A stretch of DNA of 40,281 nt. Origin: Bacteroidota bacterium. Its GTDB lineage: Bacteria; Bacteroidota; Ignavibacteria; UBA10030; BY39. The notes beneath the pieces are model-generated. The model did no database searches. It saw only the letters and a program-made list of their open reading frames with translations, and had not been told where the DNA came from. Position 1 is the stretch's first letter, and each line of letters begins with the position of its first letter. Below are positions 30,942 through 40,132 of this stretch, in pieces. A program made the translations under genes and the position numbers. The DNA lies in the NCBI GenBank assembly GCA_030017895.1, contig JASEGV010000022.1:1-40281 (forward strand), given 5' to 3'.

Positions 30942-33900
30942 TCACACGTCTTTCGTGTCGAGCAACTGACGAACTTTTTTGATAATTTGGATCGGGTCGT
31001 AAGGTTTTTGAACAATTTCTTTAATACCGATTTTAAACATTTCCGACCATATCGGCGGGTCGAGATATCCGCTCGCAAAAATAATTTTAGTGTTAGGGGC
31101 GATATTCCTGATGTTGTTGTACATTTCCCAGCCGCTCATTTTAGGTAAACCGATATCAGAAAAGATGATAGCAATTTCGTTTTGATGTTTTTTGAAAATT
31201 TCTATGCCTGATTCGCCATCGAAGGCGGTCAATACTTTGTAGCCGCGCTCCTGCAGAATCTCTTTTACCAAATCGCTCAGCATCAGTTCATCCTCAACAA
31301 CTAATATAGTTTCAGTTCCTTGCAGCAAACATTCCTGTTCTTGAATTCCTGCATCATCGGGAATTGAGTTGATATTGTAAGCCGGCAAATAAATGTTAAA
31401 GATAGTGCCGCTGTCAATTTCACTTTCGACATCAATAAAACCGTGATGACTTTGAACGACACCATAAACTACAGCAAGCCCCAAGCCGGTACCTTTGCCA
31501 ATTTCTTTAGTTGTAAAGAATGGCTCAAATATCCGTAAACGCGTCTCCTCGTCCATTCCGTGCCCTGCATCGCTTACGCTGATACAAACGTACTTCTCTT
31601 TATTAACATTGGTAAATTTTTTAGAGAGAATTTCAGCCGTTACAAGAGAGGTTGAAATTTTCAAAACCCCGCCTTTATCCATTGCATCTTTAGCATTAAG
31701 CGAGAGGTTCAATAAAATCTGATGCACCTGATTGATATCAGCCCGGATTGCGGGAATACTTCTATCGAGGTCAATTTGAATTTCAATTGTTTTCGGGAAT
31801 GTTTCGTTCAATAGTTTTACAAATTCTTCTATCACACTGTTAAGAGAAATTACAGCAGTGAGCAAATCGGTTTTGCGTGAGAAGGTAAGTAATTGTTTTA
31901 CCATACCCGATCCACGCTGGACAGCTTCGGCAATTGCTTTTACATTTTTGAGGAAATTTTTCTTAACGTATTCATCCGACTCCATTTGCGAGGCATAACC
32001 CAACACAATGGCTAATATGTTATTGAAGTCGTGGGCAATGCCGCTGGCTAAAGTTCCTAAGCTTTCCATTTTCTGCGCTTGAAGCAATTGTCCTTCAAGG
32101 AGTTTCCGTTTTGTATCGTCGAAGATATACCCTTTAATGGTTAACAAATTGCCATTCGCATCGAAATCGCCTATCACATTTTGTACGGTATGCAGAATTC
32201 TACCATCAATCCGCCGCAGTTCCAGTTCCATATATTCAATTTTTTTAGAACTTTTTAGTCGAATTAAAAACTTTTGGAACTCTGATTCATTGTAAAATAA
32301 ATTTTGCAAACTGCTGCTCAAAACAGAATCAATCGAGACGAACCCGAATATCTTAACGAATGCAGCATTACAGGTAATAATGTTACCTTCGGAGTTGGAT
32401 ATAAAATCGCCGGTTAAATCTTCCTCGAAGAAATTTCGGTATCGTTCTTCGCTTTGTATTAATTCAGCTTCTGCTTTCCATTTTTCGGTAATATCACGCG
32501 ATATTGCAACAACGTGAGTAATGTTTCCGTTTGAATCTCTGTAAGGCGAGTGTGTAACATCAAAATACCGCAAACCGGTTTCGGGAAACTCGAACCAGGA
32601 TTTGTAGTTAACAATATTTCCGTTGAACGATGCATCGAAATTCTTTTTTATTATCGTATCGAATACTTCGTTACCCCAGATGTCCGAAACTTTTTTCCCC
32701 AATATTTCTTCACGGCTTTTTTTATGAGCAATACAGTAAGAGTTGTTTACAGCTACATATCTGTAACCTGTATCAACCAAAGTCATATAATCGGGAGAGG
32801 CATTCACAATAAATTCATACTTGTGGAAAAATTCTTCAACTTTTTTACGCTCTGATATATCGGTGAGAGAACCTACGATAGCTACTGTTTTCCCATTACG
32901 CACTACTGGCGCCTCGTTCACTTCGACCCAAATTTTTCTGCCTAATTTACCTACAAGTTCAAGCTGATACGACGGTTGGACTTTGCCGATATCAATCGCC
33001 CTTTGTGTAAGTTGAATCCCTTTTAAGTTTTCCGGATTGTCTGTTAAAAGTTTAGTCCAGTTAAACATCGCCTCTTCCGGTTCGTAATCAAAAAACGTTT
33101 TTGATTGGGGACTGATATAAGTTAACACATGGTCAACAGAATGCGAATAGAAAAGGTTCGTACTGTGTTCAATGATGTTTCTTAATTTTGTTTCGCTTTC
33201 ACGCAAAGCATCAGCGATGCGTTTCCGCTCGATAATTTCTAACTTCAATTCGTTTGTGCGTTGGTCAACTTTTGTTTCAAGGGATCGGTTTGCGTTTTCT
33301 ATTTCGTCAAGTGCCTCCGCTAATTTATCGACCATAATGTTAAACGATTTTGCAAGTTGTCCAACCTCGTCTTCCGAAACGATAGTCGCCCGGCTTCTCA
33401 AATTTCCCGACGAAATATCTTCTACCGTATTTACTATCGAACGGAGAGGTCGTGTTATAACAGAACTGATACCTATTACGATAAAAAGACTTCCAAAAAA
33501 AATCAGCAGAGCTACAAAAGTAATAGCGGCGCGGCTTTTTTGGACCTCAGATTCGAGAACAACGAGTGAAAACCCGATTGTTAAATTTCCAATTACTTTA
33601 TCCGTGTGATAAATAGGAACTGTTTTTTCGTAAATCATCCCGTCTCCCGTGATGCGGCTTCCGTTTACATTTTGTTTAAAAACATTTCTCTCGATATCCG
33701 CTAAGTTGTAAGCATAATACACTTTATTCGAGTCGTCACGCAAAACTATATACACAATATCTTTAGCCAGCCTTGCACTCTGAAAAGCTTCTTTAATTGT
33801 TTGCGTATCGTTAAAAAACAAAGCCGGACTTATACTGAAAGCAGTCATCGTTGCTATGCTATTCGCTTTGTCAACTATAGCTTTTGTAGCTTGCTCTTCA

Positions 33901-34025
33901 AATTCAGAAGGAAAATAGATGAATATAAAAACCGAAATTGCCGTTACTAAAAAAGAACTTGATATGATGAGTTTAGTGCGAAGTGAAAAATTTACAAATA
34001 TTTTTTGAATTTTGGAAAAGAACAT
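30942..34025 (-). CDS. Transmembrane hybrid histidine kinase: CHASE-like sensor, HAMP, three PAS, HisKA, HATPase, REC
   Basis: A 1027-residue inner-membrane sensor. TM1 is at about 18-38 and TM2 at about 166-190, enclosing a periplasmic domain. The segment [19 protein letters not shown] (66-84) resembles CHASE8, the sensor of YfiN-type proteins. HAMP follows (about 190-245), then PAS domains at about 275-395, 400-515 and 520-645. HisKA has His665 ([10 protein letters not shown]), the ATPase has DAGHGM (819-824) and GTGLGL (845-850), and the C-terminal receiver has Asp957 ([11 protein letters not shown]) and Lys1007. All key residues are present. The gene lies 15 nt after a YfiR-family gene, which itself follows a TonB-dependent receptor. 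A periplasmic YfiR-kinase interaction is therefore likely (inference from YfiR-YfiN). Confidence 0.9.
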
Positions 34026-34040
34026 GTTTATATATTAAAA

Positions 34041-34607
34041 TTATTTAATGACCTTTGCTAAATTTAATAGCTTCGAACTGAAATCTGCCCCCTCGGCTTT
34101 TATGGATTGTAAATTTATTATGATTTGCGGCTTTTCGGCTTTGATATCCAAACCGACAGAAATACCATTCTCAACATATTGTGGAACTCCGGTAATTGTT
34201 AAAATCTTGTGTGCTTGCGTAAGTTGAGTAACCATTTTAAAATCGATTGCACGCATCGGAGTGATATACAATATATCGATAGTATGTTTCAATAGATTGC
34301 TTTTGAGATTAGTTTCATCGGAATATTCTAAAGCAACAATATGCACAGTTAAACCGACGATAGAATCATGCGTCGGTGATGCTGTAGTAACGAATGCGTT
34401 CTTTACGTCTGAAGATAATTTAAAACCTTTTTGAAAGAGTATTCCGATACTTATCTCGTTGCCGGCACGGGTTTTTAGATTCCGGTCGAAAGTAAGTATT
34501 TTTTTGAACAAAGGGATTTGAATTTCGACAGGAACAGGCATTTCCTGTGTAAAAGAAAAACCGCGAGAGAGTAAAATTATTACTAGTATATAAAAAAAGT
34601 ATTTCAA
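34041..34607 (-). CDS. YfiR-family periplasmic protein (DUF4154-like)
   Basis: 188 residues with a signal peptide (MKYFFYILVIILLSRGFSFT). The C-terminal half follows the YfiR pattern: VENGISVGLDIKAEKPQIII, then NLQSIKAEGADFSSKLLNLA. In Pseudomonas, YfiR is a periplasmic repressor that holds the CHASE8-HAMP-GGDEF enzyme YfiN inactive. Here the neighbouring membrane protein has a similar sensor region but carries a kinase output. The cysteines typical of Pseudomonas YfiR are absent, so redox control by disulfide is unlikely. It starts 5 nt after the receptor gene and ends 15 nt before the kinase, so the three are surely co-transcribed. Confidence 0.75.
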   Translation of the reverse strand: MKYFFYILVIILLSRGFSFTQEMPVPVEIQIPLFKKILTFDRNLKTRAGNEISIGILFQKGFKLSSDVKNAFVTTASPTHDSIVGLTVHIVALEYSDETNLKSNLLKHTIDILYITPMRAIDFKMVTQLTQAHKILTITGVPQYVENGISVGLDIKAEKPQIIINLQSIKAEGADFSSKLLNLAKVIK

Positions 34608-34612
34608 GATTT

Positions 34613-36571
34613 TTAGAACTTATATTCTAACGAAGCGATATAATTACGTCCATTCTGTTTAATACCGGCTTGACGATGTTCGAATCCGCCTGGATATTTG
34701 TAATCGGCATCGAATAAATTTCTTACTAAAAACGAAACTGTGAGCCTGTTAAATAACGGTTTTGTTTTAATATTTAGGTTGGATAATAAAAAAGGTTCGG
34801 TTTTCGTGCTATAAACTGTCAGTCGTTCAGTTTCCCACTGGACTTCTGTACCTGCATAAAAATATTCAAAGAGCGGAAAATTTATACCAAACTTAATCAG
34901 ATGTTCAGGCGAATTTGTAAGTTTCTCATCGGTCTCTAATTTTTTTGTACTTTGTAGAGAATAATTGATATAGTAATTCAAATCTTGTTCTGTGCGCGTA
35001 TTGATTCCGACCTCTAAACCGATTGCTCTTATGTTATCGACATTTCCAAAATATTTGAAAGAATCGGTAGTGTCAATTTTGATATCGATTAAATTTTTCA
35101 TGTCGTAACGATATAAGGAAATTGTGCTGAATGTTTCATCGCTCATCCTTTGTTCCCATATTAACTCGCTGGTAGCAATCTTCTCGGATTTTAAATTATC
35201 GCTGCGTTTGAACTCGGAATAAGGATCGTGGTAATTTATTTCATAAACATTCGGAATCCGGAATGCTTCGCCATAAAGGAATTTAAGAGTGCTCGATTTT
35301 GCCGGCTGATAAATGATAGCGCCACGTGGCGATGTAAACATTTTAAAAATTGAGTACTTATCGAACCGTATTCCTAACGTAAGCGATAAATTATCAGTCG
35401 CTTGATGTTCGTTCTGTAAATAGAATGAAGTCAGAGATGAAGGAAAATTACCATCGAAGAAAATGGTATTTGGATTCCAATATTTAAAAATAGCGAGTGT
35501 ATAATTTTTATATTCAGAACCGGCAATGATTCGATTTGAGGTAGTTAAATCCCAACAAAACTGAACTTCGCCGCCAAACCAACTCCCCTTACTTTCATCA
35601 TAAGCAATCAAGTCATACTTGTATGTTCCTTTATAGGTATAGTTATCGTAGTATGCCCTGAGTAAAACAGTTTTATCAATATCAAACTCATTTTCGTATT
35701 TTAGTTCTATAAATTTGTATTCATCTAACGTATAAGCATCGGGATCATTAAATACTATATCATAAGCACCAGTCGGGATACCTTTTTTACGGGATGAGAA
35801 TTTTCCGAGAAGCGACAAGTTGTTGTAGCTCAGTGTCGAGGTAAAACTAGCGAATTTATCCCAGTCTAAATTGTTGGCAATTCCGTAATTATTTACCGGG
35901 CTATCGTATTCCGGATAAAATTGATCTTCACCTTTAATATCGCCAATAGTTCCCGAAAAAGAAAAATCTAAACCATTAGCGAACAATTTACCATAGCGGG
36001 AAGAAGCTTTGATGTTCCGATAACTTCCGATATCAGCGTCAACCTGCAAACCGTCAATCGCATTCCCATTTTTTGTAATTATATTGATTACAGCAAACAT
36101 TGCATTGCTTCCGAATAGGGCAGAACCGGGACCTCGTACAATTTCAATACGATCTACACTTTTTAAATTAATTCCTAATTCAGTTCCGATAGATGCCGAA
36201 CCGTAAATATTTTCGTTTATGCTATGCCCGTTCAACATAAGCAAAATACGGTTATTGTAATCGGTGGGTCGGCTGAAACCACGCACACCCAGGTAACTGT
36301 AATTACGATCGTAACTGATGTAAAATCCTCTAATACTCTGCAATACCTCGGACAAATTTTGGTATCCAAATTTGCTAATTTCATCCGAAGTAATTACCGT
36401 AACTGAAGCGGGAATGTCGCTGGTTTTTTGTAAATACTTTGAGGCCGCACTAATTTTGATATTAAGAAGCGAATCGAGTGAAATTGAGGAAGCTAACAAA
36501 TCGTCGCTTTGCCCAATAGCGTTTGGTATTAAGAGAAATGTTAGGAGTAAATATTTTACAATAATTTGCAT
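34613..36571 (-). CDS. TonB-dependent outer-membrane receptor
   Basis: 652 residues: a signal peptide (to about residue 20), a plug domain at about 45-165 (IPASVTVITSDEISKFGYQN, then VDRIEIVRGPGSALFGSNA and the closing VINIITKNG), and a 22-strand barrel ending in the aromatic-terminated strand ...ASLEYKF. The N-terminus is short and has no carboxypeptidase-like or STN signalling domain, so it cannot by itself use the classical FecA-FecR route. The ligand is unknown; no siderophore, cobalamin or SusD-type gene is near. Its operon position before YfiR and a sensor kinase suggests a sensory or scaffolding role in place of, or beyond, uptake (inference). Confidence 0.9.
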   Translation of the reverse strand: MQIIVKYLLLTFLLIPNAIGQSDDLLASSISLDSLLNIKISAASKYLQKTSDIPASVTVITSDEISKFGYQNLSEVLQSIRGFYISYDRNYSYLGVRGFSRPTDYNNRILLMLNGHSINENIYGSASIGTELGINLKSVDRIEIVRGPGSALFGSNAMFAVINIITKNGNAIDGLQVDADIGSYRNIKASSRYGKLFANGLDFSFSGTIGDIKGEDQFYPEYDSPVNNYGIANNLDWDKFASFTSTLSYNNLSLLGKFSSRKKGIPTGAYDIVFNDPDAYTLDEYKFIELKYENEFDIDKTVLLRAYYDNYTYKGTYKYDLIAYDESKGSWFGGEVQFCWDLTTSNRIIAGSEYKNYTLAIFKYWNPNTIFFDGNFPSSLTSFYLQNEHQATDNLSLTLGIRFDKYSIFKMFTSPRGAIIYQPAKSSTLKFLYGEAFRIPNVYEINYHDPYSEFKRSDNLKSEKIATSELIWEQRMSDETFSTISLYRYDMKNLIDIKIDTTDSFKYFGNVDNIRAIGLEVGINTRTEQDLNYYINYSLQSTKKLETDEKLTNSPEHLIKFGINFPLFEYFYAGTEVQWETERLTVYSTKTEPFLLSNLNIKTKPLFNRLTVSFLVRNLFDADYKYPGGFEHRQAGIKQNGRNYIASLEYKF

Positions 36572-36573
36572 AT

Positions 36574-38265
36574 TTATCCAAGAACTCTGAATACTTCTGA
36601 AGAGGTAGTAATACCTGACAATACTTTTCGAATTGCTGAGTATCGGATTGTTCTGAAACCATTAAGATGAGCAGCTTCTTTTAACTTCATTAGTGGTGCG
36701 TTCTGGTAGATTAAATCTTTTAATCGGTCATCTACGGTAAGCAACTCGTGGACTGCGGTAAGCCCTGAGTATCCGCTGCCGCTACAAGACTTACAACCTT
36801 GTCCTTTATAAAATATTAATTCAGATTTATAACCGCAGATACCCAAGCGATTTAATTCTTCATCGGAAGGTTTATAGGATTGCTTGCAATCGGGACAGAT
36901 AGTTCTTATTAACTGCTGATAGATAACTCCGGACAGAGTCGGTGCCAGCCAAAAGGGCGGGATACCGAGTTGGAGCAAGCGTGGAATAGTCCCGATAGCA
37001 TTGCTGGACAACATTGTACTTAGAACTAAATTCCCATTTAGGGCAGCCTCTGCGGCTACAATTCCAGTTTCTACGTCTCGGATTTCACCTATTAAAATAA
37101 CATTTGGTCGCTGCCGCAAAATTGATTTTAAAGCATCTGCAAAACCGAACGATTTATCAACTCCTGCATGTACCTGTGTAGCAAAATCGAGCTTAAATTC
37201 GATCGGGTCTTCAACTGTTAAAATATTTTTTTCAGCAACATTGAGTTGGTTAACTGCAGAATATAGGGTAGTACTTTTACCGCTTCCTGCAGGTCCAGTA
37301 ATTAAAATCAATCCACTCGGTTTACTTATTAAATAGAGAAGTTTTTCCAGATTTCTGCTAGATAAACCGATATTTTCTATATGCCGGATCGAGGTAGTTT
37401 TAATAAATAGCCGAAGAGCGATCCTCTCACCATAAACTGAAGGTAAAAAATTGACCCTGACATCGATTTGTTGAGTTCCGATATTAGTAGTAAAGCCACC
37501 TTCTTGAGGTTTGCGTTTTTCAAAAGCATTTAAATCGGCTCGGGTTTTAAAAATGTTAGCAAAATTCTCGCTGAATTCCCGCGGAAGCGATATGAGTCTT
37601 TCCAACACACCAAACTTGTCGGTTCGCACTCGCAGCTCATTCTCCATCGGTTCAAAATGTATATCGTGCGCATCATTTTTTAGAGCTTTAATAATAATTT
37701 CTTCTGTTAAAACATCGAATGGCGGTAGCTTTCCGTTCCTTTGTGCTTCAATAATTCTATCTCTGCCAATCAACTTCATATCAAATTGTTCGAGACTAAA
37801 TCTGCTTGTGAGCGTCTTGATTTCGTCAACCTTGACTCCTTTACTTTTAACAAGATTTCGGTAATTGGCTAACGTAATTCCAATAGGTATGATAACTCGC
37901 TTAGATTCTTGTTTTAATAAATCAATCAGTGGTTTATACGGCGGGTCAACGAATGCAACGGTCAACTCCATTCCTGTCAGGGTGAGCGGAATAATACGAT
38001 ACTTCAAGCAGGTAGAGTGGGACAACAACGGCTCCTTCAAAGTAATATGCCCTTCGTTGATCACGATTTCAGGTATGTCAAAAGTGGTTGCAATGCTTTG
38101 CTGAACAATCTCATCGGCAACTCCGATTTCATCGACTAAAACTTCAGCACAACCTTGAGTATGGCTTTCTTTTAGAAGCTTTAAAAATTTTTCGTATTTG
38201 AGTTTATCGATTATATTTAAAGCGAACAAATTTTTAGCTAACGTTACATCTTCATCATACAGCAT
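36574..38265 (-). CDS. GspE/PilB-family secretion or type IV pilus ATPase with degenerate His box
   Basis: A 563-residue hexameric motor ATPase that in relatives drives pilus or pseudopilus assembly at the inner membrane. An N-terminal MshEN/T2SSE-like region (about 1-145) is followed by the core: DIHFEP (201-206), Walker A GPAGSGKS (324-331), Asp box near 347-356 (ILTVEDPIEF), Walker B VILIGEIRD (389-397), and the tetracysteine zinc motif Cys457/460/491/494. The His box, usually GHLVLSTLHTNDA, reads GNLVLSTMLSSNA, so both histidines are lost. Catalytic Glu and Walker motifs are kept, so ATP hydrolysis may persist but be altered. No pilin, PilC or PilQ genes are in the window. It sits between a CheY/zinc-ribbon pair and a receptor. 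Confidence 0.9.
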   Translation of the reverse strand: MLYDEDVTLAKNLFALNIIDKLKYEKFLKLLKESHTQGCAEVLVDEIGVADEIVQQSIATTFDIPEIVINEGHITLKEPLLSHSTCLKYRIIPLTLTGMELTVAFVDPPYKPLIDLLKQESKRVIIPIGITLANYRNLVKSKGVKVDEIKTLTSRFSLEQFDMKLIGRDRIIEAQRNGKLPPFDVLTEEIIIKALKNDAHDIHFEPMENELRVRTDKFGVLERLISLPREFSENFANIFKTRADLNAFEKRKPQEGGFTTNIGTQQIDVRVNFLPSVYGERIALRLFIKTTSIRHIENIGLSSRNLEKLLYLISKPSGLILITGPAGSGKSTTLYSAVNQLNVAEKNILTVEDPIEFKLDFATQVHAGVDKSFGFADALKSILRQRPNVILIGEIRDVETGIVAAEAALNGNLVLSTMLSSNAIGTIPRLLQLGIPPFWLAPTLSGVIYQQLIRTICPDCKQSYKPSDEELNRLGICGYKSELIFYKGQGCKSCSGSGYSGLTAVHELLTVDDRLKDLIYQNAPLMKLKEAAHLNGFRTIRYSAIRKVLSGITTSSEVFRVLG

Positions 38266-38282: not shown

Positions 38283-38612
38283 TTATGATTTTTTGAACAT
38301 TGAATCGATTTCAGTCTGTGAAAGTGTATATTTTTTTTCTTTCGTTTGAAAGTTGTCTTCTTCTAAAATTGCCTTGATATCTTCCTCTGAAAAATTTTCA
38401 CCGACGAACAAACCTTGTCTGGTTTGTTTATGATTTAAATTTTGAATACCCTCCGGGCTCACTTTTGTAAGCATTCCGCAACCTCCACAGTAGATATCTT
38501 TTTCGCTATTAATAAAACCGCACGAATGCCTTTGAGTTGGTAGTGTTTTACCACAATGTAGGCAAAATAGCCGGTTGATGTTATTTTCGGTATTGCACGC
38601 TTCACATATCAT
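38283..38612 (-). CDS. Zinc-ribbon protein with two FliM-like CheY-docking peptides
   Basis: 109 residues. Two zinc ribbons occupy the N-terminal half: Cys3/6/17/20, and Cys31/42/45 with His29 as possible fourth ligand. After a flexible linker the C-terminal third has two short acidic helices, FSEEDIKAIL (74-83) and LSQTEIDSMF (97-106). Both resemble the N-terminal LSQ-EID-LL peptide of FliM that binds phosphorylated CheY. The upstream gene, 1 nt away, encodes a CheY-like receiver, and the downstream gene is a GspE-type ATPase 17 nt away. The ribbons may bind the ATPase or its zinc motif while the peptides bind the receiver. The zinc ribbons are seen; the CheY link is inference. Confidence 0.7.
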   Translation of the reverse strand: MICEACNTENNINRLFCLHCGKTLPTQRHSCGFINSEKDIYCGGCGMLTKVSPEGIQNLNHKQTRQGLFVGENFSEEDIKAILEEDNFQTKEKKYTLSQTEIDSMFKKS

Positions 38613-38613
38613 A

Positions 38614-39006
38614 TTAGTTCTCTCCTCTATTGCTTAAAATCTCTTTTACAATATTTAAAAAGAATTGATTATCGTATGGTTTTACAAAATAATAGAGCGC
38701 TCCTGCTTTTTTTGCGGCGCCTACATTTTCGGGGTTAGCAAGGGATGAAATCATAACTACACGCGCCTTCGGATTTATTTTCATAATATCCTCTAAAACA
38801 TCCATCCCGTTTTTCTTTGGAAGCATTATATCCAAAACTACGAGATCGGGATTCAATTGTTTGAATTTTTCAACTGCCGATAATCCATCGGCTGCCGTAA
38901 ATATTTTGGTCAGCCCCTCTTTCTTAAATAACGTTGTCATAATAGTTCGTATATAATCTGAATCATCGACTATTAAAATTGTAGAAGATAAATATTGCTC
39001 TGACAT
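38614..39006 (-). CDS. CheY-like single-domain response regulator
   Basis: A stand-alone receiver of 130 residues with every catalytic residue: acidic pair Asp14/Asp15 (LIVDDSDYIR), phospho-acceptor Asp59 (VVLDIMLP), switch Ser87 (MISS) and Lys109 (FVKPYD), with aromatic Tyr106 in the switch position as in CheY-type output by docking. With no output domain it must act by binding a partner. The adjacent zinc-ribbon protein with FliM-like peptides is the obvious candidate. Phosphate could come from the hybrid kinase at the end of the operon (inference). Confidence 0.93.
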   Translation of the reverse strand: MSEQYLSSTILIVDDSDYIRTIMTTLFKKEGLTKIFTAADGLSAVEKFKQLNPDLVVLDIMLPKKNGMDVLEDIMKINPKARVVMISSLANPENVGAAKKAGALYYFVKPYDNQFFLNIVKEILSNRGEN

Positions 39007-39028: not shown

Positions 39029-40132
39029 TTAAAGTAAAATTGGGAGAGTGAATATATAGTAATTTCCTATACCTTCACTATTTTCAGCCCAGAATTTTCC
39101 ACCGTGGGCTTCGATAATCATTTTACAGATTGTAAGCGACAAATTTTTGTTCAACACTATTTTATTTAATCTTGCCTGCTCAAAGCGATCGACTATCAAA
39201 TTAAGTTCTTCCGGATCTATATGGTCTCCTGAATCTTTGACCGAACATTTTATGTACGTCAGGTTCGAATCCTTATGCAGTTCGGCAAACACTCCAACGT
39301 CGCCGCCTATAGGGGTTTGCGAAATAGCATGTCCGATTAATAATTGCAAAGCATGCATCAGTTGATAAGAATCGAACTCGAATTGTATATCTTCCTTGCA
39401 GAAAAATCTGTTTAAATTTATCTTCTGTTTCCTGATAACTGTATCGAGATGAGAAATACTTTGATTAATCGTCTCAATAATATTATGTCTCTCGCGTTTC
39501 AAGGTAATACTTTGAGGGTCGAATTTGGCAACGACTGCCGATTCCTGTAGAAGTCCGATATGTTCATCGAGTGCACTTATGGCTAATTGGATTATCTCCT
39601 TTTGATGTTCATTCAGAGTACCCGTTGATTCATCCGTCAGCATCAACAGCGGAAGTTTTACCGAGGTCGAATAATTTAAAAAGTCCTGCACTAACAGATA
39701 TTGAAAATTCCGGTATAAATTTTCAGCTTCCCTTTCTGCATGGTACATCCTTAACAATGCCCTGATTCTTATTAAAAGTTCGTCGGTGTTGATAGGTTTA
39801 TTGAGGAATTCATCCCCCCCCGATTCGAATCCTTTTTGAAGGGCTTCATGTGTATTTGCTCCCGTAAGAAATACGATCGGAGTTTTCAAGAATGCTTTGA
39901 TTTTCCTGATTTCTACAGCAGTTCTGAAGCCGTCTAATATGGGCATGTGAACATCGAGGATTATCAGATTGGGGTTGAACGAATTGATTATTTTCAAACA
40001 TTCAAGTCCGTTGGGGGCTTCGGCTGTTACGAACCCGGCATCAGTAAGACAACTTGCTAATAACATCCGCAGGGCTTCTTCGTCATCAACAACCAGTATC
40101 TTATCTTTGTTTTTCTCTTTTTTTGCTACCAT
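39029..40132 (-). CDS. Receiver fused to a degenerate histidine kinase (REC-pseudokinase)
   Basis: 367 residues. The N-terminal receiver (12-125) is intact: Asp16/Asp17, Asp60 (LIILDVHMP), Thr90 and Lys112. It is followed by a HisKA-like helical region where the phospho-accepting histidine is replaced by Gln148 or a neighbour (LLVQDFLNYS), and an HATPase-like fold whose boxes are eroded: the N-box asparagine is His267 (LLIGHAISQTP), the G1 box reads DSGDHI (300-305), and the G2 glycines are missing (NKNLSLTICK). It probably neither binds ATP well nor transfers phosphate. A role as a phospho-regulated scaffold or partner-binding module is likely (inference). It is the first gene of the operon, with ATG only 10 nt after the 3' end of tRNA-Arg(ACG). 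Confidence 0.85.
   Translation of the reverse strand: MVAKKEKNKDKILVVDDEEALRMLLASCLTDAGFVTAEAPNGLECLKIINSFNPNLIILDVHMPILDGFRTAVEIRKIKAFLKTPIVFLTGANTHEALQKGFESGGDEFLNKPINTDELLIRIRALLRMYHAEREAENLYRNFQYLLVQDFLNYSTSVKLPLLMLTDESTGTLNEHQKEIIQLAISALDEHIGLLQESAVVAKFDPQSITLKRERHNIIETINQSISHLDTVIRKQKINLNRFFCKEDIQFEFDSYQLMHALQLLIGHAISQTPIGGDVGVFAELHKDSNLTYIKCSVKDSGDHIDPEELNLIVDRFEQARLNKIVLNKNLSLTICKMIIEAHGGKFWAENSEGIGNYYIFTLPILL

Follow-up and report, generated by a model that had tools for sequence, protein, structure and literature searches.

A putative receiver adaptor with FliM- and CheZ-like peptides, encoded between a CheY-like receiver and a PilB/GspE-type ATPase in Bacteroidota

The flagellar switch captures phosphorylated CheY (CheY-P) with a short tethered peptide, which is a textbook mechanism. 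In the window analysed here, the whole stretch of 40,281 nucleotides from a Bacteroidota contig, two peptides of this type occur on a small zinc-ribbon protein that is encoded between a single-domain CheY-like receiver and a PilB/GspE-type ATPase. What would such peptides bind outside a flagellar system, and which machine would they serve?

Gene layout and the zinc-ribbon protein

The response regulator (RR), the zinc-ribbon protein (ZR) and the ATPase are encoded consecutively on the minus strand (Table 1). A single base (38613) separates the stop codon of RR from the start of ZR, and 17 bases lie between ZR and the ATPase gene. The first-pass annotation had described both peptides on the zinc-ribbon protein, the receiver gene (38614-39006) 1 nt upstream and a GspE/PilB-like ATPase following, and all of this was confirmed by the open reading frames and Pfam searches. 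A scan for promoters and terminators found sites no more frequently than in shuffled sequences. On the 3′ side of the ATPase, 2 bases away, the minus strand (30942-36571) encodes a TonB-dependent receptor, a YfiR/DUF4154 protein and a hybrid PAS histidine kinase. In the closest relatives (G002-G004), a cytidine-deaminase-like gene adjoins the ATPase instead.

Table 1 Features of the receiver, zinc-ribbon and ATPase locus (positions in the window)
Feature	Position	Strand	Support or remark
Receiver with degenerate histidine-kinase-like domain	39029..40132	-	Directly upstream of RR
RR, CheY-like single-domain response regulator, 130 aa	38614..39006	-	Pfam Response_reg 8e-26
YFVKPY, beta5 segment of RR with Tyr106 and Lys109 equivalents, in CheY part of the FliM/CheZ-binding face	38674..38691	-	Contact list of PMC8225110
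ZR, putative double-zinc-ribbon adaptor, 109 aa	38283..38612	-	Pfam DZR 1e-5; 43 homologues in the order
Folded double zinc ribbon of ZR, residues 1-47	38472..38612	-	AlphaFold2 pLDDT 84-89 in blocks 1-50; invariant Cys
First FliM-like peptide of ZR, FSEEDIKAIL, residues 74-83	38364..38393	-	Predicted helix 76-88
Second and strongest FliM/CheZ-like peptide of ZR, LSQTEIDSMF, residues 97-106	38295..38324	-	Predicted helix 99-107
Full-length PilB/GspE-type ATPase, 563 aa	36574..38265	-	Pfam T2SSE 4.5e-95
Degenerate His box of the ATPase, STMLSSNA	36997..37020	-	The genome's own PilB and A-clade paralogues have STLHTND

The Pfam DZR match of ZR is slightly below the curated cut-off of that family. 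An AlphaFold2 model, built on a 10-row alignment, predicted a confident ribbon followed by a disordered linker and by two helices located at the two motifs. LSQTEIDSMF stops three residues short of the C-terminus of the protein. Scored against the FliM N-terminal peptides of the window's order, LSQTEIDSMF obtained 31.0 and exceeded all of the 130,915 ten-residue background windows taken from other open reading frames, the best of which reached 28.25. FSEEDIKAIL is weaker, with a score of 18.8 (2e-4 per window). At its position, almost every ZR homologue has a weaker FliM-like window, which is usually the second-best window of the protein. Searched genome-wide as a plain DNA pattern, the motif is no more frequent than its reversed control. 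Therefore, the case for the peptides rests on their position, conservation and context.

FliM- and CheZ-like peptides and their conservation

The FliM proteins of the same order have the N-terminal sequence LSQQEIDSLL. The tail of ZR thus has the LSQxEIDxLL-type docking peptide of FliM, located at the C-terminus rather than at the N-terminus. FliM and ZR have in common the LSQxEID core, a flexible linker to a folded domain, and a CheY-like receiver as partner, which is putative in the case of ZR. However, ZR differs from FliM in the C-terminal location of the peptide, in its final Phe and in the presence of a second, weaker copy. Its carrier is a zinc ribbon and not a switch protein, and the host organism has no flagellum. 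The middle domain of FliM (PF02154) was not matched in a Pfam search of ZR.

CheZ, the other classical ligand of CheY-P, is similar to the same extent. The CheZ homologue of genome G021 (L123, C54; Pfam CheZ 7.5e-12) ends with SSQADIDALFASTK (SSQADIDALF), which is nearly identical to the ZR tail. By sequence match, ZR thus has a putative CheZ-type C-terminal CheY-P-binding peptide. The sequence of the ZR tail therefore resembles both classical ligands, and its C-terminal place and final Phe are closer to CheZ. The first-pass annotation had suggested a CheY-to-motor link moved from the flagellar switch. The FliM-like nature of the peptide was borne out, but the CheZ tail is equally alike, and over ten residues common descent and convergence are inseparable.

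The likeness to CheZ raises the possibility that ZR is a CheZ-like phosphatase or sink, which captures phosphorylated RR and ends the signal, while RR acts directly on the ATPase. The ZR peptide agrees with the CheZ tail from this order in its C-terminal position and terminal Phe, and a CheY-like PATAN regulator has been reported to bind PilB1 (PMC7690835), as RR would have to do. However, ZR showed no match to the Pfam CheZ domain, nothing resembling the Q-D-x-x-x-Q stretch visible in the CheZ of G021 is seen in its sequence, and its folded part is a zinc ribbon. ZR also differs from CheZ in having a pilus-type ATPase as neighbour. We consider the phosphatase or sink role quite unlikely.

To examine conservation, the gene context of 43 ZR copies was inspected in the window's order, across 30 genomes. 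RR is directly upstream of ZR in 42 copies (the remaining one starts at a contig edge), a T2SSE ATPase is directly downstream in all 43, and the C-terminal peptide [LIV]-[ST]-Q-x-[DE]-[IVL]-[DE]-x-[LMI]-F is conserved in 42, one as the near match LNQDEIDKFF; these counts are drawn from related sequences and genomes and do not represent independent events. The first-pass annotation had named homologues with non-conserved motifs as an outcome that would speak against its reading, and the homologues turned out to retain the C-terminal peptide beside RR and the PilB-like ATPase. When 22 homologues were aligned, only two columns were invariant apart from the zinc Cys/Gly columns, namely Q99 and F106, both in the C-terminal peptide. 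The ZR copy of G052 (L194, 672 onward) has lost half of the zinc ribbon and retains both peptides. The one copy that does not count as keeping the peptide, in G050 (L195), has an in-frame TAG, which is either a recent lesion or an assembly error, and both peptides are still encoded 3′ of it.

Within the window's order, 31 of 98 genomes encode full-length ZR. Among 395 sampled genomes of the phylum, the matches to ZR from outside the order were all generic zinc ribbons. When the closer ZR homologues were aligned and searched against GTDB contigs, matches were obtained in Ignavibacteriae bacterium BY39 and in several Bacteroidetes/Bacteroidota metagenome-assembled genomes, and a genome-wide search with ZR alone as query returned no named relative. 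The RR-ZR-ATPase unit is repeated in tandem in some genomes, with two units in several and three in one. The latter is G468 (L181 8572-13804), where the third ZR ends with LNQDEIDKFF.

The receiver, its docking face and its possible kinase

Neither FliM nor CheW is encoded in the window's genome, the assembly of which has a completeness of 100%, and both are also absent from the four other sampled members of the family. Because of this absence, RR and ZR are not part of a flagellar or ordinary chemotaxis system in this genome. As CheW is missing, RR does not qualify as a member of a CheA/CheW chemosensory system, and the kinase that charges it is not a CheA-CheW array. Alternatively, ZR could be a leftover or accessory of a flagellar/chemotaxis system and bind the flagellar CheY, given that FliM was found in 10 and CheW in 13 of the 31 ZR-bearing genomes. 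However, the distributions of FliM and ZR are independent of each other (10 joint occurrences among the 98 genomes against 9.8 expected), the neighbours were never recognisably flagellar in the loci that were read, and the whole sampled family of the window lacks both FliM and CheW. A flagellar accessory is thus very improbable. For the window's genome it was rejected, based on the distribution of FliM and CheW and on the completeness of the assembly.

Two genes of the window were considered in relation to the phosphorylation of RR. The protein encoded at 39029-40132 has no acceptor His, no N-box Asn and no G2 glycines, and the same holds for its counterparts in three relatives that share the gene order. 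Judging from these residues, it looks like a conserved pseudokinase. The hybrid kinase farther downstream (30942-34025) is, by its position only, a possible candidate phosphodonor for RR.

The solved structures closest to RR are those of the chemotaxis CheY proteins of Pyrococcus and Thermotoga. With residues numbered by their E. coli CheY equivalents, the ZR-adjacent receivers are competent for phosphorylation: Asp12, Asp57, Thr/Ser87, Tyr106 and Lys109 have equivalents in all 42, and Asp13 in 41 of them. The contacts of E. coli CheY on FliM are Ala90, Lys92, Ile95, Ala99, Tyr106, Val108, Lys119 and Lys122 (PMC8225110). We compared 40 ZR-adjacent receivers with 43 other receivers from the same stretches of DNA. 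Position 95 was Val or Ile in 39/40 ZR-adjacent receivers (11/43 in the others), position 99 was Lys or Arg in 40/40 (6/43), position 106 was Tyr in 40/40 (18/43), and position 108 was hydrophobic in 40/40, whereas it was mostly Thr, Pro or Ser in the other receivers. Overall, positions 95, 99, 106, 108 and 111 are near-uniform and mostly CheY-like beside ZR, which is not the case in the comparison set. Positions 90, 95, 106 and 108 are the CheY-like ones among the FliM contacts. The Lys/Arg at position 99 departs from the Ala of E. coli, and CheY1 of A. fabrum likewise has Arg. Position 119 is Val or Ile in the ZR-adjacent receivers and not Lys as in CheY. It is known that Lys119 of CheY forms a salt bridge to Asp12 of FliM (PMC7012829); this bridge therefore cannot form in the same way between RR and ZR. 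Taken together, the residues point to a specialised, CheY-like alpha4-beta5-alpha5 face in the ZR-adjacent receivers.

Position 122 is basic in most copies of RR and acidic in the window's family. Basic ZR tails are paired with Glu, Asp or Gln at this position in 6/6 cases, and all other tails with Lys or Arg or, once, Asn; the charge swap occurred in two separate lineages and thus counts as only two events. It is the trace that a contact between the ZR tail and helix alpha5 of the receiver would be expected to leave. Alternatively, the ATPase or a pilus protein, and not the receiver, could be the docking partner of the ZR helices, with their likeness to FliM being a coincidence of short amphipathic helices. 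Chance matches to such short helices are easily obtained, and the ATPase is the most constant neighbour of ZR, adjoining it in every copy. However, the full ten-residue pattern is matched, at a score above that of every background window, and the adjacent receivers are specialised exactly at the face that binds FliM, with a charge that covaries with the ZR tail. Docking on the ATPase or a pilus protein therefore appears unlikely, and docking of RR on ZR is, from the sequences, an inference that we regard as well supported.

The ATPase and a proposed relay

The ATPase of the window has intact Walker A and B motifs and the zinc CxxC motif. It matched the PilB model TIGR02538 (3e-120) over residues 9-561, with scores below both equivalog cut-offs (402.5 against 675.65 for PilB and 398.1 against 630.25 for GspE). 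The His box is important for catalysis in PilT/PilB ATPases. In the window's ATPase, the HTND of STLHTND is not retained and the sequence reads MLSSNA. A tree of 39 triad ATPases separated a group with STLHTND from a clade of 18 rows (100/100 support), which includes the window's ATPase and has sequences like STMLSSNA. The His box was lost once, at the base of this clade, the only other row of the tree without the motif being masked at that site. In tandem units, as noted in L035, L036, L037, L039 and L040, one ATPase has the His box and the other does not. This loss suggests that the window's ATPase may be a regulatory paralogue or a modified motor subunit, and it is probably not a plain extension motor. 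Therefore, the first-pass annotation was right about the PilB/GspE type of the protein, while its description as a motor has to be qualified, since a member of a His-box-less paralogue clade may be a regulatory subunit.

No platform protein is encoded beside the ATPase at the locus. Besides this ATPase, the window's genome encodes three T2SSE proteins. Its only PilC gene is on a different contig, clustered with genes for a secretin, PilB and a PilT-like ATPase. It is probably the machine of this cluster that the window's ATPase serves or regulates. Compared with the PilB/GspE family, the protein has the full-length architecture, Walker A/B motifs and zinc motif in common, but it is an orphan without a platform protein, it belongs to a clade that has lost the HTN of the His box, and it scores below both equivalog cut-offs.

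We propose that RR, ZR and the ATPase probably constitute a signalling relay, in which phosphorylated RR docks on the peptides of ZR and ZR passes the signal to the PilB-like ATPase. The kinase acting on RR would lie outside the classical chemotaxis pathway, and RR would expose its CheY-like alpha4-beta5-alpha5 face. The short amphipathic helices of ZR, carried on the flexible linker, would dock there, above all LSQTEIDSMF and probably FSEEDIKAIL as well. Either the zinc ribbon or the captured receiver would next contact the PilB/GspE-type ATPase encoded with them and alter how active a type IV pilus or type II-like machine is, or where it is placed. That ZR acts on the ATPase, and in which direction the control runs, are steps that we infer only from gene order.

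Two known systems resemble parts of this relay. In Synechocystis, the CheY-like regulator PixE (PATAN-CheY) reportedly binds PilB1 via its fused PATAN domain (PMC7690835). A CheY-type receiver controlling a PilB-type ATPase is common to PixE-PilB1 and to the triad as proposed here. However, the PixE receiver protein itself carries the PATAN effector and binds PilB1, whereas the triad would employ a bare receiver and a separate adaptor. In agreement with this difference, the receiver was the only real domain found by Pfam in the 130-aa RR, and no PATAN domain is fused to it. In archaea, CheF bridges CheY and the archaellum (PMC6718144). It shares with the proposed role of ZR that a dedicated adaptor connects CheY to a machine of the type-IV-filament type. 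However, CheF occurs only in Euryarchaea and operates together with che genes, and neither CheF nor PixE is a zinc-ribbon protein carrying peptides of the FliM type. The first-pass annotation had stated that the link was not known to be described, and in the open-access literature we likewise found no such system, nor any report of a FliM-like peptide associated with zinc ribbons or with a pilus ATPase system. The docking principle itself is already known, and we rate the carrier, the target and the biological setting as the new elements.

More generally, ZR may represent a new class of phospho-receiver adaptor, a zinc ribbon with two FliM/CheZ-type peptides, which runs type-IV-filament ATPases without flagella or chemotaxis; in some lineages, it would act on a pair of ATPases, one canonical and one His-box-less, each with its own receiver-adaptor set. 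We offer this wider reading tentatively and give it somewhat less than even weight. If true, the CheY-P docking module would be portable between unrelated motors, including in bacteria without a flagellum and without CheW. The triad suggests that the signal-catching device of the flagellum has been reused for the control of pilus- or secretion-type motors. In most systems it is an open question by what means a bare receiver might control a PilB-type ATPase, and the proposed relay gives a concrete and testable answer. The tandem units with one His-box-less ATPase provide a natural test of the regulation of such motors.

RR and ZR share a reading frame in L042, L044, L102 and L106, where nothing but a stop codon and one further codon lies between them. 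Elsewhere, the two might exist as natural RR-ZR fusions.
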